A stretch of 64,000 nucleotides of DNA from Natrinema salinisoli (GTDB lineage: Archaea; Halobacteriota; Halobacteria; Halobacteriales; Natrialbaceae): the NCBI RefSeq assembly GCF_020405205.1, contig NZ_CP084469.1, positions 1,736,001-1,800,000 of the forward strand. The letters run 5' to 3'. The notes under the pieces are model-generated. The model worked only from the letters and a program-made list of their open reading frames with translations. It had not been told where the DNA came from and did not search any database. This document shows positions 8,584 through 17,586 of the stretch, one piece after another (within the stretch, counting starts at the first letter, position 1; each line of letters begins with the position of its first letter). Both the position numbers and the translations under genes were made by a program.

Positions 8584-10812
8584 CTACTGGAAGCCGATGC
8601 GGCTGCCGCGACGACCCGACGGGTCGGGGCCGCTCGTGCCGCCCTGGAACTCCTCTTCGATCTGCTCGTAGTAGTCGAGGATGTCGTCGGTGATCGTCGG
8701 CCGGACGTTCTCCATGGCCTGTCGGAAGTGGCGCATCTCGACGATGTCCGCCTCCTCGTCCTCGCGGAGCGCCTCGATGGCCGCCTCGCGGGCGATCGAC
8801 TCGAGGTCGCTACCGACGTAGCCGTCCGTGATCTCGGCGATCTCCCGGAGCGTGACGTCCGCGGCCAGCGGCGTATTTTCGGTGTGGATCTCGAGAATCT
8901 TCTCGCGGCCGTCGACGTCGGGTTCGCCGATCATGACCAGCCGGTCGAACCGACCCGAGCGCAGCAGTGCGGGGTCGATCATGTCCGGCCGGTTGGTCGC
9001 GCCGATGACCATGACGTTGCCCATCTCCTCTAACCCGTCGAGTTCGGTCAGGAGCTGGTTGACGACGCGTTCGGAGACGTTCGATCCGGTTTCACCGCCC
9101 CGACCCGGTGCGAGTGCGTCGAGCTCGTCGAAGAAGATGACCGTCGGCGAAACCTGGCGGGCCTTGCGGAAGGTCTGGCGGATGGCCTTTTCGGATTCAC
9201 CGACCCACTTCGAGAGGAGTTGCGGGCCGCGCACCGAGATGAAGTTCGCGTTGGTCTCGTTGGCGACGGCCTTCGCCATCAGCGTCTTCCCGGTGCCGGG
9301 CGGGCCGTACAGCAGGACGCCGGCCGGCGGGTCGACGCCGAGCCGGTCGAACCGCTCGGGGTTCGAGAGCGGCCACTCGACGGACTCCTGTACCTGCTCT
9401 TTGGCGTCGTGGAGGCCGCCGACGTCGTCCCAGGAGATCTTCGGGAGTTCGACGAGGACCTCCCGCATCGCCGACGGCTCGACCTCGTTCAGTGCGCCGC
9501 GGAAGTCCTCGCGCTTGACGATCATCCGATCGATCAGGCTCGGCGGGATGTCCTCCTCGTCCAGGTCGATCTCGGGGAGGTATCGGCGGAGCGCCTTCAT
9601 CGCCGCTTCCTTGGTGAGGCTCTCGATGTCGGCCCCGACGAAGCCGTGCGTCTCGTCGGCGAGATGACCGAGGGTGACGTCGTCCGAGAGGGGCATCCCG
9701 CGGGTGTGGATCTGCAGGATCTCCTCCCGGCCCGTCTCGTCGGGGACGCCGATCTCGATCTCGCGGTCGAACCGCCCCGGTCGGCGCAGCGCCGGATCGA
9801 CGCTGTCGACGCGGTTGGTCGCCGCGATGACGATGACTTGGCCCCGGGACTCGAGACCGTCCATCATCGTCAGCAGCTGGGCGACGACGCGGCGTTCGAC
9901 CTCGCCGGTGACGTCCTCGCGCTTGGGTGCGATGGAGTCGAGTTCGTCGATGAAGATGATCGACGGCGACTCCTCGGTGGCGTCCTCGAAGATCTCCCTG
10001 AGTTGCTGTTCGGACTCGCCGTAGTACTTCGAGATGATCTCCGGGCCAGCGATAGAGAAGAAGCTGGCGGAGGTCTCGTTGGCGACGGCTTTCGCGAGCA
10101 GGGTCTTCCCGGTCCCCGGCGGGCCGTGCAGGAGGACGCCCTGTGGCGGCTCGATCCCGAGCTTCTTGAAGATCTGCGGGTGCTTCATCGGGAGTTCGAC
10201 CATCTCCCGGACCCGCTGGATCTCGTTTTGGAGGCCGCCGATGTCCTCGTAGGTGATCCCGCCCCCGGTCTTCTCGAATCCCGAGATGGGTTCCTCGCGG
10301 AGTTCGACGTCGGTGTCCTCGGTGATGAGGACGACGCCCTCCGGTTCGGTCTCGACGGCTATGAGTGGGATCGCCTGGCCCGGCGATCGCATGAACGGAT
10401 GATTCGTCGAGCTCATGACCGGGACGATGTCGCGGCCGACTACCGGGCGCTTCAGGATCTGTCGTTTCACCATCCCGGCGGCGTCCGAGCCGAACTGGAC
10501 CGACGCTTCCTCCGGCGGTGCGAGTACCAGTTTGTCGGCTTTCGTCGCTTCCGCCTTGCGGATCGTCACCCGTTCGCCGATGCCGACGTCGGCGTTCTGT
10601 CGGGTGAACCCGTCGATACGGACGGTATCCGTGTTCCAGTCCTGCCGGTCTGCCCGCCAGACTTTCGCGGCAGTCGTATCTGCACCCTCGATTTCGATGA
10701 TGTCGCCCGGGCTGAGCTTCAGATGCAACAGCGTGTCCGGGTCGAGCCGGGCGATACCACGACCCGAGTCGTTCGGGTATGCCTTCGCAACCTCCAGTTG
10801 GACTTCGTTCAT
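8584..10812 (-). CDS. Cdc48/VAT-family AAA ATPase, paralog B (canonical)
   Basis: A 742-aa protein with the classical archaeal VAT layout: N-domain ([20 protein letters not shown], then a second barrel lobe ending before [12 protein letters not shown]), D1 with GPPGTGKT near residue 230 and FIDELD, and D2 with GPPGTGKT near 505 and [14 protein letters not shown]. Second-region-of-homology arginines are present in [10 protein letters not shown] and [10 protein letters not shown]. The C-terminal tail is short and acidic with GFQ at the end. It functions in ATP-dependent unfolding upstream of the proteasome. This copy has a short N-D1 linker and the usual family length, so it is the better candidate for the housekeeping enzyme. 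Confidence 0.95.
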
Positions 10813-11023
10813 GATTTAGGGACGGCGATGTCAATGACTCCGATTCGTGACCGGATAGGTTTTTTGCTAGGTCGAATCATTTCCTGTGCTAGTGGCTAAC
10901 ATACAATGATACGACTGGACGCTACAAAGATGTACCGGCCTCGGTTGGTTTTGGCCCTATCGACACCGCGTCTGTACGGTGCAGAGAGGTGACTTTTTGC
11001 GTCTTCCGCCCCGGAGTGGTCAC

Positions 11024-12334
11024 ATGCGAATCCTCGCCTTCGACGGCCGCATGGGAGCCAGCGGTGACATGCTCCTCGCGGCCCTCCTCGACGCCGGTGC
11101 CGACCCCGACGCCCTCGAGCCCGTCACCGACGCCCTCGACGTCGAATACCGGATCGACGAGGCCGAAAAGAGCGGCATCGCCGCGACGACGGTGGACGTG
11201 CTCCTGACGGATGAGAATGCGAACGGGACTCGATCACACGGCCACGACGAATCCGACGGCGGACACGACCACGAGCACGGCGACGCGAATCACGATCACG
11301 ACGACCACGACGGCGTTCGCGCCGAAGGTCACGGCCCCCATCGCAGCTATCTCGAGGTCCGCGAAATCGTCGCCGACATGGGCCTCGAGCCAGCGGTCGA
11401 GCGCGACGCGCTCGCGATATTCGAGCTACTTGGCGAGGCGGAAGCGAGCGTTCACGGAGAGGCCCTCGAAGAGATCCACTTCCACGAGGTCGGGGCCGAC
11501 GACGCGATCGCGGACGTGGTCGGTGCGGTCGCGTTGCTTCACGACCTCGAGCCCGAGCGGGTCGTGACGACGCCGCTCGCGACCGGCGGCGGAACGGTGT
11601 CGATGAGCCACGGCGAGTATCCGGTCCCGACGCCGGCGGTCGTCGAAATCGCCCAGCGGGCCGACTGGTCGCTGCGCGGCGGGCCAGTCGACGCGGAACT
11701 GCTCACCCCGACCGGAGCGGCGATTCTGGGTCACGTCGCCGACGGCGTCGACTCGCTGCCCGCGCTCGAGGTCGAGGCCTCGGGCTACGGCGCGGGCGGC
11801 TACGATCTCGATCCCCATCCGAACGTGCTTCGGATGCTGGTCGGGACCGGCGAGGACGGCAGTGAACTGGTGAAAGACGATATCGCGGTCCTCGAGACGA
11901 ACCTCGACGACGCGACGCCCGAAGTGCTGGGCGGATTGCAAGAGACGCTCGCGGACGCGGGCGCGAGAGACGTTTCGATTCTCCCTGCGACGATGAAGAA
12001 GTCCCGCCCCGGTCATCTCGTGAAGGTGATCTGCAAGCCAGAGGACCGGGAACGGGTGGCTCGAGCACTGGCCGAAGAGACGGGAACACTGGGTGTCCGT
12101 GATGCGGGCGTGACCCATCGATGGATCGCGAATCGGGAGTTCGAGACGGTGAGTCTCGAGATCGACGGCGAGGAGTACGCGGTCACTGTGAAGATCGCGA
12201 GCGACGCCGACGGAGAGGTCTACGACGTGAGTGCGGAGTACGATGATGCAAAGGAAGTGGCTCGAGAAACGGGACTGCCAATTCGGAATGTGGTACAGCG
12301 AACTGAGTGTACGGTCGCCTTAGAAGCAAAGTGA
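11024..12334 (+). CDS. larC: Nickel-pincer cofactor biosynthesis protein LarC
   Basis: A 436-aa LarC: CTP-dependent nickel insertase that finishes the nickel pincer nucleotide used by lactate racemase and relatives. The N-terminus FDGRMGASGDMLLAALLDAGA is the LarC signature (quoted in two parts: FDGRMGASGDMLL, AALLDAGA). A later block FHEVGADDAIADVVGA is also typical. A His/Asp-rich loop (about residues 65-110, with HGHDES, GHDHEHG and HDHDDHDG segments) probably binds or stores nickel. Starting at the ATG at 11024 removes a basic 15-residue N-terminal stretch. LarB, LarE and LarA are not in this window, so the client enzyme is elsewhere. Confidence 0.93.
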   Translation: MRILAFDGRMGASGDMLLAALLDAGADPDALEPVTDALDVEYRIDEAEKSGIAATTVDVLLTDENANGTRSHGHDESDGGHDHEHGDANHDHDDHDGVRAEGHGPHRSYLEVREIVADMGLEPAVERDALAIFELLGEAEASVHGEALEEIHFHEVGADDAIADVVGAVALLHDLEPERVVTTPLATGGGTVSMSHGEYPVPTPAVVEIAQRADWSLRGGPVDAELLTPTGAAILGHVADGVDSLPALEVEASGYGAGGYDLDPHPNVLRMLVGTGEDGSELVKDDIAVLETNLDDATPEVLGGLQETLADAGARDVSILPATMKKSRPGHLVKVICKPEDRERVARALAEETGTLGVRDAGVTHRWIANREFETVSLEIDGEEYAVTVKIASDADGEVYDVSAEYDDAKEVARETGLPIRNVVQRTECTVALEAK

Positions 12335-12421: not shown

Positions 12422-13039
12422 TTACCAGTTGTAGTTATTCTGCGAGATGTCGTTGAAGCTAAAGGCACTACCGCCGTCACCGCCGTCACCGCCGAAGTTG
12501 TAGGCATCTCCACCGTCACCGCCTTCGGCGTCGCCGCCTTCGACCTCGTCTTCGATGTCGCCGCCGTCACCGCCTTCGACCTCATCTTCGATGTCGCCGC
12601 CGTCACCGCCTTCGGCGTCACCGCCTTCGCCGCCTTCAGCGCCAGAGCCATCTTGCAGACCCGGCGGTATGCTTAATGTCGAAGCTTCGGCATTGTCTTG
12701 CTGGCCCGGCGGGACAAAGCTATCGGTGCTATCGGCCGATGCGTCACCACCATCACCAGCGGTACCGCCGTCACCGCCATCGCCAGTGTCAGCGTCAGCA
12801 TCACCGCCGCTACCGCCAATGGCAATTGCATCGCCAGCGGTACCGCCGTCACCGCCGGAACCGCCCACGACAACGACATCGCCGCCGGAACCATCGGCAA
12901 TCGATGTCGCGTCGGCTGCGTTGACCTGTGTAACATCTCCGCTCGATCCCCCAGTGGCTGCTGCTGCTCCTGCTCCCATCGTGAGCAGCATTCCGAAAGC
13001 CACTGCGACCGTGATCATAGCTGTAAGTGAGCGTTTCAT
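12422..13039 (-). CDS. Secreted Gly-Gly-Asp-rich repeat protein
   Basis: A 205-aa protein with a signal peptide (MKRSLTAMITVAVAFGMLL then GAAAATGG). The mature part is dominated by Gly-Gly-Asp units (GGSGGDGGTAGDA, GGDGGDGG, GGDAEGGDGGD) with a few Glu and Ala. Two tandem 36-bp copies encoding the same G-G-D-I-E-D-E-V-E-G-G-D segment lie at 12539-12610. Right after the signal a short unit VTQVNAADATSIA resembles the Q-x-N units of the protein encoded at 13718, and the C-terminus ends SQNNYNW. There is no RTX consensus, though calcium binding by the Asp-rich loops is plausible. An ATG at 13060 would add MLKQQQT. Likely a cell-surface or matrix component; convergent with larC. Confidence 0.75.
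   Translation of the reverse strand: MKRSLTAMITVAVAFGMLLTMGAGAAAATGGSSGDVTQVNAADATSIADGSGGDVVVVGGSGGDGGTAGDAIAIGGSGGDADADTGDGGDGGTAGDGGDASADSTDSFVPPGQQDNAEASTLSIPPGLQDGSGAEGGEGGDAEGGDGGDIEDEVEGGDGGDIEDEVEGGDAEGGDGGDAYNFGGDGGDGGSAFSFNDISQNNYNW
12539..12610. repeat. Two tandem 36-bp copies inside the Gly-Gly-Asp gene
   Basis: Copy 1 is 12539-12574 and copy 2 is 12575-12610. They differ at one base (G to A). They lie in frame and duplicate a 12-residue segment, suggesting recent expansion by slippage or unequal crossing-over. Confidence 0.9.
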
Positions 13040-13717
13040 GGTTTGTTGTTGTTTGAGCATACACGCGCGGACCGCCGGAACTGTCTCGTCTATCGGCCGG
13101 CGACACGATTCCGTCACAGCTTGTCTGACCGATCCGAGCGGATGCCACGGCGCGTTGCCCAGGTGACCCTGTTGCTGATATCACGTATTAACCCGAATCA
13201 CGGTTTCACGGGCTATGCGAGATTAGAATCGAAATAGAGGCCCGTAGACATACGTAGCAGCTGTCTTTGGAGCAACAGCTGGAAGATTTCAGGCCCCAAT
13301 TGACACCATAATTACTATAATCCAACTTATACGACTGGATTGATAACCATATTGACCCGGCGCTGTCCCCGAAATAGTATCTAGAGAATAGTCACCAATT
13401 CATAATATAATGTTCAAGACAATATGCGTTCCGAGAGAAACCCATATGGAGTTATTATACCGACGATTATTTTCTCTGTTCCGATATTTTAGCGGTTTTG
13501 GCGCCTGATACGGGATGAAACGGTCAATAAATACGACATTTCCTCTCAAGGCTTTCTTATCACTGGTAGGCACGTCCCCCTCCAAAGGTAGCACCTACCT
13601 TCTGCCCTCTAAAGCATTGATAACAAAGACTATATCCGAGAGAGATTGGTTCGCGTCGCAGAGATTCAACAACGAAAGACCCTCACGGGTCATTTGACAC
13701 GAACCACGATCAACAAA
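13040..13717. other. AT-rich intergenic region between two divergent secreted-protein genes
   Basis: About 680 bp with markedly lower GC than the flanks, especially 13250-13640. It separates the Gly-Gly-Asp gene (leftward) from the curlin-like repeat gene (rightward), so it must hold both promoters. Candidate AT-rich blocks include TTACTATAATCC near 13312 and GACTATATCCGAG near 13629. I find no convincing gene; the open frames present lack halophile codon bias. Confidence 0.5.
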
Positions 13718-15283
13718 ATGTCCGAACGATCACGAATTACGACGATTTTCGTTGCCGTTATGGTCACCATCTCGATGGTCGGAGCGGCCGGCCCGGTGGC
13801 TGCCGGCGGCGACCAACACGCACAGGACCAACCAGTATACACCCTCGAGAACGGCGAAGATCTTTATTTGGTCTTTGGCGCTGATCTCGGTGAACAGAGC
13901 CTTGGAGAGTTCATCGATGAGAACATCGCTAGCGGTCCGAAAGCCGCCGAAGAGCAGGAAGCCATCGCCGATGTCATTACGTACCAGAACGTTAAGCAGG
14001 TGAACATTCAGGAGGAGGGTGCCGCCGTCTCCATCGGAATCGATAACGGAACGGCTACGGCCGTTCAAGATGTAGATCAGCAGAACATGAACGTCCAGCA
14101 GGGCGAGGCATCCGCCGAGAATCGGGCGTTCGATTCCAGAACGACTGACTTCGAGAACGTCGGCGATGTCCACATCGTCATGGCTAACGGCAGCGGTGGC
14201 GGCCAGCAGTTCAGTGGCTGGGGAATCGCCGACGAGGAAGGCGAAACGACGGCCAGCCAGACCGCGACCGCGGCAGTAGCCCAGGCTCAAGAGGTGGCCC
14301 AGCTCAACTACAACGAAGAGAGCACTGCCTTCGCGCTCGCGATGAATGACAGTCAGGCGACCGCCTTCCAGCAGACCACACAGGCGAACCAGAACCTGCA
14401 GCAAGGCGTTGCCAACGCATCCAACGTCTATCTCGGAGATGGTGAGTTCGGAGATTACGACAAGCACAAGAAGAGCAAGAAAGATGACGACGAGACGCAG
14501 GCTGCGTCTGCCTTTGTTGCACAGGGACAGAACACATCTCAGAATAACGTCAATCAAGGGGTGGCCGCAGTCGCGATCGCTGTCGGCGAGGACAGTTCCG
14601 CCACGGCGATCCAGCTGACGGATCAGTCTAACTTTAACCAACAACTGGGGTCCGCGGAAGCCACGAACATTCTCTCATCGATGTCCGGGATGAACGTTGC
14701 GAATATCGGTGAGAGCGAATCAGTTAGCACTCACAGCCCGAAGAAGAGCGATGACGAAATCTCAAAGAAAGGCGAGAGCGACGGTGAGCAAACGGCTACC
14801 GCGACGGTAGCGCAGGCACAGTCTGTCGAGCAACTGAACGTCAATCTGAACAACACTGCAATGGCTATCGCGCTCAACGGCAGTGAAGCGACGGCCTTCC
14901 AGATCGCCGATCAAAAGAACTTAAACGCTCAGGTCGGGTACGCCGAAGCACTCAATGTCTACGCCAGTCCAGGGTATGCAACTGACAGCGCTACCCGAAC
15001 CAAGACCTCGACGGTGACTGTCGGTGGCAATGATATCGCGGCAGACCCCGGCGTCTCGTATGACTACGACACCAATTCGAGTCACAAAAACGATATTAAA
15101 CAGGGGGCAACTGTTGCCATCGAACAGCAACAGTTTGTCACCCAAGCAAACCTCCACGAACACTCTTCCGTGGCGATCGCTGAGGACAACGGCAGTGCGA
15201 ACGCTGCACAGGTAAGTCTTCAGGAGAACGAGAACATCCAATTCACGTCCGTCGCCGCGACGAACGTTTGGGCTAGCGCGTAA
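13718..15283 (+). CDS. Secreted protein with five curlin-like Gln/Asn repeats (candidate amyloid/fibre subunit)
   Basis: A 521-aa protein with a Sec-type signal (residues 1-30, ending GAAGPVAAGG). Five repeats lie at about residues 86-137, 184-237, 264-319, 361-415 and 463-518. Each consists of two strand-turn-strand halves: Q-x3-Q-x-N-x-N followed by A-x-A-I-A, then ATA-x-Q-x3-Q-x-N-x-N-x-Q-x-G-x-A-x-A-x-N. This resembles the S-x5-Q-x-G-x-N-x-A-x3-Q periodicity of bacterial curlin (CsgA/CsgB), which folds as an amyloid beta-solenoid. Linkers between repeats are charged (for example DYDKHKKSKKDDDE). No curli secretion or chaperone gene is nearby. The ATG at 13718 is chosen because the signal peptide follows directly. 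Function is inferred from repeat pattern only. Confidence 0.8.
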   Translation: MSERSRITTIFVAVMVTISMVGAAGPVAAGGDQHAQDQPVYTLENGEDLYLVFGADLGEQSLGEFIDENIASGPKAAEEQEAIADVITYQNVKQVNIQEEGAAVSIGIDNGTATAVQDVDQQNMNVQQGEASAENRAFDSRTTDFENVGDVHIVMANGSGGGQQFSGWGIADEEGETTASQTATAAVAQAQEVAQLNYNEESTAFALAMNDSQATAFQQTTQANQNLQQGVANASNVYLGDGEFGDYDKHKKSKKDDDETQAASAFVAQGQNTSQNNVNQGVAAVAIAVGEDSSATAIQLTDQSNFNQQLGSAEATNILSSMSGMNVANIGESESVSTHSPKKSDDEISKKGESDGEQTATATVAQAQSVEQLNVNLNNTAMAIALNGSEATAFQIADQKNLNAQVGYAEALNVYASPGYATDSATRTKTSTVTVGGNDIAADPGVSYDYDTNSSHKNDIKQGATVAIEQQQFVTQANLHEHSSVAIAEDNGSANAAQVSLQENENIQFTSVAATNVWASA

Positions 15284-16359: not shown

Positions 16360-17586
16360 TCAGTCGGCGACGCTGACGGACGACGTCGACGGCGTAAACA
16401 GCTGCTCGTCGAGGGTGCTCCAGTCGTCGAAGTCGTCACTGCCGTCGCCAGCGGAGAATCCGTAGTACTCTCCCGGTGCATTGTAATTCATCACGCTCGG
16501 GTAACTGCTGAAGGAGTATCGATCAGTGTCGATCCCCTCGAAATCGGCGCTCGAGAGTCCGAGCGAGTGGCCCAATTCGTGCATCACGACTGATCCCGTT
16601 CGGTCGCGACCCGGCAGGGATTCGACCATCATCGTTCCGGGCCTAGCTCTCCCGATGACGTTGGTTCGGCCCGTGTCACCGCCGACATCTTCGACGATAA
16701 CCAGATAGTGATAGCCCATGCCTCTCCGATCGAAGTGCTGCGATCTGTCTCCGTTCAGATCGCCGATCGTAGTCGACGATTCCCACGGCACCGCCCCACC
16801 ATCGATCAGGTGAAGTGCCATCCCGGTCGACCCGTCGGGGTTTCCGAGCGGAGCTGCGTCGAATTCGGCGACGATCCGCTCGCGTTCGCGCTCCTCGAAA
16901 TGAGTCCGCTCCATCGTGTCGACCTCGACGTAGATATCGGTCCTGAGCGGATCGGCATCGGGAAAGAGATCCTGCCGGTGCACCTCCGCACCGTCGGACA
17001 ATCCGTCGCCGTCGCTATCGGAGTCCGTCGGATCGGTCCCGTATTCGGTGACCTCCGGGCCGTCGTCGAGCCCGTCATCGTCCGTATCAGCCACGTTTGG
17101 ATCGCTTCCGTGCTCGAGCAACTCCGGGCCATCATCGAGCCCGTCCCCGTCGGTATCCGCACTCGTGGGGTCGGTGTCGTACTCCTCGAGTTCGTCGGGA
17201 TCGGAAAGGCCGTCGCCGTCCGAGTCCGCAGCGAGCGGGTCAGTATCGTACTCGTGTATTTCCGAACCGTCGTCGAGCCCGTCCCCGTCGGTATCCGCCT
17301 CGAGCGGATCCGTCCCGTGTTCGGCCACCTCTCGCCCGTCCGCGAGGCCATCGTCGTCGGTATCGGCGGCGGTCGGGTCGGTTCCGTATCGCTTTTCTGC
17401 ACCGTCCTCGAGCCCGTCGTCGTCCGTATCCGCATCGAAGACCGCGGTCCCATCGCGGAGTTCGACCAGCGGCGGGACGCCGTCGGAATCGGGATCGAGA
17501 ACGGTCGTTCCGCCGACGATCCCGCCCGTTACGAGACCGGCGACGAGAACTACAACGAGAATACCGGTGACCCGCGACGGTAGCAT
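16360..17586 (-). CDS. Secreted zinc metalloprotease with thrombospondin type-3-like calcium repeats
   Basis: A 408-aa protein. Residues 7-30 are a signal/anchor ([19 protein letters not shown]). Residues about 32-205 hold seven Asp-rich repeats of the form [20 protein letters not shown], a thrombospondin-3/EF-like calcium motif spaced about 24 residues. The C-terminal domain has the zinc-binding motif HELGHSLGL and, about 25 residues later, a metzincin-type Met-turn in YPSVMNYN. This makes it a probable extracellular endopeptidase whose repeats project or stabilise it in high salt. Full-length as far as visible; the start is the ATG just before the hydrophobic segment. Its neighbour on the right (Lhr helicase) is divergent. 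It may act on surface or matrix proteins such as those encoded at 12.4-15.3 kb (inference). Confidence 0.85.

Follow-up and report, generated by a model that had tools for sequence, protein, structure and literature searches.

We found that the window, a 64,000-nucleotide stretch of Natrinema salinisoli DNA (1736001-1800000 of the main contig), encodes a secreted protein of five Gln/Asn-rich repeats, here termed BIG, and a small secreted partner transcribed divergently from it (Table 1). The chances are about even that the two belong to a haloarchaeal two-component extracellular beta-solenoid system, analogous to curli and not homologous to it, which is probably matrix-forming; we also put the probability of fibre formation near one half.

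The ATG at 13718 and the stop at 15283 were found to be correct. An in-frame extension of BIG from the TTG at 13646 was rejected, and because several relatives have stops there, the codons upstream of the ATG are read as a conserved non-coding leader. The signal peptide proposed in the earlier note was borne out by a hydrophobic N-terminus common to all Sec-type homologues. Likewise, all five of the repeats it described were recovered (repeat HMM, E = 3e-19 to 5e-24); the repeat pairs aligned with z scores of 7.4-17.5, every score exceeding all 500 shuffles, and the two-half Gln/Asn (Q/N) spacing is real, with five occurrences of QxNxNxQ against 0.03 expected. The mature protein had also been taken to consist of repeats only, but it further holds a LYLVFGADL module, a VYIVF...F.GW module and four variable linkers of ~23-45 residues. 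LYLVFGAD is near-invariant in the family, and the module holding it forms a strand and a helix in the AlphaFold model. At the C-terminus, R5 is followed by four residues and the stop, with no anchor, and a PGF-CTERM was looked for in the window BIG and found absent. Mature BIG contains 10.2% Q and 8.8% N, whereas four proteins encoded nearby have 2.1% and 2.3% (Q + N, 19% versus about 4.4%), and its GC3 is 0.67 versus 0.78-0.90 in neighbouring genes. Comparison with two orthologues gave a dN/dS of 0.11-0.12, showing purifying selection.

Table 1. Features of the BIG locus (positions in the window unless a locus is named)
Feature	Position	Strand	Basis
BIG, 521-aa secreted five-repeat protein (P0001)	13718..15283	+	translation, family search
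BIG Sec-type signal peptide MSERSRITTIFVAVMVTISMVGAAGPVAA, residues 1-29	13718..13804	+	cleavage site by eye
BIG N-terminal module Y.LENGE.LYLVFGADL...L.E.I, residues 40-72	13835..13933	+	family conservation, model
BIG repeat R1, residues 79-135	13952..14122	+	HMM E 3.5e-22
BIG small module 2, located between R1 and R2, FENVGDVHIV...F.GWG..D, residues 143-172	14144..14233	+	family-conserved
BIG repeat R2, residues 180-237	14255..14428	+	HMM E 2.1e-21
BIG repeat R3, residues 260-317	14495..14668	+	HMM E 2.8e-19
BIG repeat R4, residues 357-414	14786..14959	+	HMM E 5e-24
BIG repeat R5, residues 461-517	15098..15268	+	HMM E 8.2e-20
Small secreted partner, 205 aa, signal MKRSLTAMITVAVAFGMLLTMGAGAAAAT, GGDGG-rich, end SQNNYNW	12422..13039	-	orthologues G072/G063, same place
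Divergent intergenic region, constrained ends	13040..13717	.	comparison with two orthologues
GATAACAAAG element, 99 nt upstream of BIG start	13619..13628	+	conservation
LarC-like gene, conserved left flank	10979..12334	+	synteny
CDC48-type AAA ATPase, conserved left flank	8584..10812	-	synteny
MNQRTAMALTIGLAAAA protein sites	L046 5915-6547, L047 12544-13176, L048 12822-13466, L056 6165-6803, L049 12747-13403		

Among 62 family members, column entropy within the repeats alternates with a period of two residues (i, i+2; autocorrelation at lags 1, 2, 3 and 8: -0.51, +0.66, -0.48 and +0.46). Maintained over ~55 residues, this alternation implies an extended chain with one fixed face and one free face. 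Across 14 relatives chosen as distant (28-52% identity to the window BIG), 66 columns are invariant, and 43 of these are Q or N at ladder positions (Q.Q...Q.N and Q...Q.N.N.Q) that hardly change from one repeat to the next. The repeat HMM counted exactly five repeats in 62 of 62 BIG proteins. An AlphaFold2 model of BIG, built from a 5-row alignment, consists of long stacked strands with two extended stretches of ~27 residues each per repeat. The structure prediction that the earlier note proposed as a check reached a pLDDT of 70-79 in the repeats and was of low confidence overall (linkers < 50, mean 51, pTM 0.49), and the two-repeat fragment R2-R3 modelled alone reached a pLDDT of 45. Foldseek against the PDB placed CsgA (8c50, E = 0.18) first, an autotransporter (4kh3) second and FapC (9u4u, E = 5.3) third, none of them significant. 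VIA-align, which scored Foldseek's own candidates only, gave Z = 10.4 for the SufB/SufD beta-helix (rmsd 2.9 over 152 residues lying between 85 and 514), Z = 7.4 for CsgA 8c50 with a poor superposition (rmsd 8.1) and Z = 2.7 for FapC. Together, the strict alternation, the invariant Q/N and the moderate-confidence model give moderate support to BIG being a stacked solenoid with Q/N ladders.

In this architectural sense the description of BIG as curlin-like has moderate support, but it failed at the level of sequence. The Pfam profile Curlin_rpt (PF07012), with E. coli as the positive control, had no match in the BIG-bearing genome and none above cut-off in 61 relatives; weak matches in relatives (L036-L040) lay in large unrelated repeat proteins and were dismissed. 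The curlin kernel is N-x-P-x-P-x-Q-x-G-x-x-N, minimally QxGxxN, in a repeat of ~22-24 aa (PMC10192328, PMC3521004); BIG contains the full kernel nowhere and QxGxxN once, with QX10Q below chance. Comparison with E. coli CsgA and CsgB gave a BLAST E of 14, an hhalign probability of 0.1% and no cross-match of reciprocal HMMs, and CsgG (PF03783) had no match in the genome. BIG is therefore not curlin by any sequence test. Searches of Pfam, NCBIfam, PHROGs and PDB sequences with BIG returned nothing usable, FapC among the PDB sequences was matched by neither phmmer nor a profile search, and the searches run found no sequence kinship to proven amyloids. Viral contigs contained no BIG relative, and the family turned up under no Pfam, NCBIfam or literature name, the papers covered being mainly open ones.

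BIG resembles CsgA/CsgB in its secreted imperfect repeats, in its predicted Q/N ladders and stacked beta-arches, in sharing the repeat count of five with E. coli CsgA, and, in many relatives, in adjoining paralogous subunit genes. It differs in a repeat of 52-58 aa, compared with about 22 aa, without PF07012 or the QxGxxN kernel; in a divergent rather than operonic gene pair, with no CsgG found here; and in a host that lacks an outer membrane. Pseudomonas FapC is likewise a secreted repeat amyloid with linkers between repeats and a weak structural match (9u4u), but its repeats measure 34 or 48 aa (PMC6242892), its locus is another one, and BIG is fixed at five repeats and has no sequence match to it. 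The archaeal amyloids described so far are sheath proteins of methanogens (PMC6242892, PMC10593813). These MspA/SH proteins of Methanospirillum and Methanothrix are, like BIG, archaeal and secreted, with imperfect repeats, and form a beta-rich surface polymer of the sort that BIG may form (PMC6242892, PMC10593813), whereas by description their two ~80-aa repeats and sheath-forming methanogen hosts set them apart. Archaeal threads and bundling pili are also surface filaments of secreted subunits (PMC9715654), but their subunits are globular donor-strand proteins and not repeat solenoids. The SufB/SufD core and the autotransporter beta-helix adhesins share the overall coil stacking of the BIG model, but they are non-polymerising domains with no sequence kinship to BIG. 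Their beta-helix core is not known to be a Q/N ladder.

The absence of Csg-like partners reported in the earlier note holds for CsgG, but BIG is not without a partner, as shown by the divergent secreted ORF listed in Table 1. This protein is 70% and 59% identical to its orthologues in the two closest relatives, with a dN/dS of 0.16, and the HMM detected no full repeat in it. In the family, the DNA upstream of BIG divergently encodes between one and four small secreted proteins whose signal peptide is shared (MKRtlaitLTVAmiGSLmFMGFAGTAAA). The partner in the window occupies this slot as a Gly-Asp-rich variant and has a signal of this type. Of the 50 distinct Sec-type loci, 43 had a small partner at the expected position according to a model of this signal, and L093, picked up by the repeat HMM, brings the figure to about 44; these counts are descriptive, the model having been trained on 22 of these small proteins and several loci comprising 1.5 kb of upstream DNA only. 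None of the 11 twin-arginine-type large genes had a small partner beside it. Many small proteins hold one complete BIG-type repeat (47-59 bits after bias correction), and related GGDGG small proteins (L058, L051) keep QxNxN half-motifs, which link the GGDGG-type to the repeat-type proteins. With a repeat-bearing small protein divergent beside BIG in most relatives, the system looks more curli-like than previously thought. The small genes occur in tandem sets of 2-4 and diverge rapidly around the one repeat. In one lineage, a third secreted protein (MNQRTAMALTIGLAAAA...), with a duplicated FPWG.V.H.TDSDTGATDV.VIVDAD unit and a Ser/Thr-rich tail, adjoins the small genes.

Between the two genes, the last 100 nt before BIG share 95% and 87% identity with the DNA of the two orthologues, compared with 78% and 50% in the middle of the intergenic region. 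The element GATAACAAAG lies ~86-101 nt upstream of nearly all Sec-type large genes and is single in nearly every locus having it. The conserved ~100-nt leader (13619-13717), which opens with GATAACAAAG and recurs at this place in most Sec-type loci, could be a promoter or regulator site. A structured RNA was rejected, since no conserved fold was supported in the leader and Rfam had no match. The whole genome contains five GATAACAAAG sites, no more than the reversed control, so a genome-wide regulon is not claimed. The other three genomic sites (L121, L122 and L125, each at 1501-1510) may be chance: one has an acyltransferase nearby, another stands ~27 nt ahead of an oxidoreductase that adjoins a polysaccharide deacetylase, and the third is close to a sugar epimerase and an HTH gene.

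The search of other haloarchaeal genomes for the repeat, which had been suggested, was productive: a BIG homologue was present in 99 of the 125 genomes of the window's family, and further homologues occurred in other haloarchaeal families, for example in Haladaptatus and Halomicrococcus. A sample of 393 genomes from across the phylum yielded none outside the window's family. These homologues are annotated as 'hypothetical' or 'PGF-CTERM sorting domain-containing'. Most loci examined share the order CDC48-LarC-small-BIG-DUF460, the flanking genes being what we take to be a CDC48-type AAA ATPase, LarC and a DUF460-like gene. The 'composition island' of the earlier note consists mainly of AT-rich intergenic DNA (GC 0.47 and 0.51) and the lower-GC3 BIG gene in a syntenic chromosomal locus. 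Recent acquisition on a mobile island was rejected because of this synteny, despite the GC3 and an outlying position in the tree, where the window-type BIG (own genome, G072, G063) lies apart from the branch formed by all others of the genus. A second copy of the ordinary genus type (G000:C1:2023879-2025429; L002, L041; 58% identical) lies 274 kb away, adjoins a DUF460-like gene and has lost its small partner; its eighth codon is TGA, so it may be inactive. In G072, DUF460, the large gene, the small gene, LarC and CDC48 are all together. Window-type copies have a GC3 of 0.67-0.76, compared with 0.84-0.86 in ordinary Natrinema-type copies. The simplest account is that the window-type cassette (large plus GGDGG small gene) replaced the ordinary pair in place; the large and small genes travel together, which supports a joint function.

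Large proteins also vary in their signals and C-termini. PGF-CTERM motifs end some of them (L093, L105, L106; a PGL variant in L104), and judging by this motif these would be lipid-anchored, while a twin-arginine-like clade (signal MKRRGYLKGIAATG...) has no small partners. Outside the usual locus, large genes at L044, L055 and L108 adjoin sugar nucleotidyltransferases, glmS or an acyltransferase, neighbours hinting at a link to the polysaccharide matrix. One genome (G088) carries at least three small repeat genes at its LarC locus (L054 6441-11516) and no large gene there, its large gene being a twin-arginine-type copy elsewhere (L055). In the window, the convergent neighbour of BIG (16360-17586, minus strand) encodes an acidic secreted protein that combines TSP3-like calcium-binding repeats with a HELGHSLGL metalloprotease motif. 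In other families, ORFs of ~1000 aa, possibly encoding S-layer glycoproteins, have N-termini with a weak match to the BIG signal peptide (863-1122 aa; examples are G347:C1:2890510 and G341:C1:1007978).

From these observations we infer amyloid polymerisation, a division of roles and a matrix function as follows. BIG would be exported by Sec, and each repeat would form two long, extended beta-segments, turning their fixed face (Q, N, A, S, G) toward the core. Equivalent residues of successive repeats would stack into Q/N ladders, while the charged linkers loop into the brine. The open end of the solenoid could then add more BIG copies or the small partner, which has one such repeat in many lineages and may act as nucleator or subunit, so that the matrix would contain cross-beta fibres or a mesh at the surface. 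Where a PGF-CTERM anchor is present, as in some lineages, it may hold the large protein on the cell as a surface nucleator. More tentatively, with a probability that we place somewhat below even, this may be a previously undescribed archaeal functional-amyloid system that evolved independently of curli and Fap, comprising a Sec-exported five-repeat Q/N-ladder protein and divergently encoded one-repeat subunits with a shared upstream GATAACAAAG, existing in anchored and twin-arginine versions, and operating with neither an outer membrane nor Csg machinery.

Many beta-solenoids do not polymerise, and the main rival, which we hold less likely than not, is that BIG is a surface or secreted adhesin or stalk of this kind, a single closed domain capped by its N-terminal module and binding polysaccharide, other cells or the S-layer, with the small proteins as ligands or regulators instead of fibre subunits. 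The fixed number of five repeats speaks for this and against fibres, given that the repeat number of curlin varies widely (PMC10192328, PMC3521004). The PGF-CTERM anchors of several relatives also fit a non-polymerising surface protein, the nearest structural matches are ordinary beta-helices (SufB/SufD, Z = 10.4) and a self-associating autotransporter, and some loci have the polysaccharide-gene neighbours noted above. However, the window BIG and most relatives carry no anchor and end directly after R5 with no cap, and an invariant core made entirely of Q/N is typical of amyloid ladders but unusual in a solenoid that stays monomeric. Moreover, because a separate small protein carries the shared repeat, different chains may well stack on one another.

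It is unlikely that the small proteins are instead the main fibre subunits, with BIG only a nucleator or cell-surface platform. Their tandem multiplication and fast variation around one repeat are consistent with that arrangement, as is the anchoring of large proteins in some lineages, expected of a nucleator; but many small proteins, including that of the window, have degenerate or no detectable repeats, and the twin-arginine-type clade has the large protein without small ones. Far less probable is a compositionally biased, disordered acidic/polar secretome protein that lacks an intrinsic fold and whose Q/N pattern is a by-product of repeat expansion. The low overall pLDDT, the repetitive sequence and the acidic linkers would agree with disorder, but strict alternation and invariant Q/N persist across 28-52% identity at a dN/dS near 0.1, and the repeats within BIG are far diverged, which excludes recent expansion.

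Haloarchaeal biofilms bind Congo red and thioflavin T, with one tentative candidate gene proposed (Haloferax volcanii, PMC4180959). With the BIG family, many Natrialbaceae and Haladaptataceae now have specific genes that can be tested. If BIG polymerises, the curli principle of a repeat solenoid with Q/N ladders and paired subunits would have arisen independently in archaea, and would work at molar salt concentrations and with no outer membrane. Otherwise, the family would be a new and large one of beta-solenoids with a Q/N core, showing what prevents amyloid.
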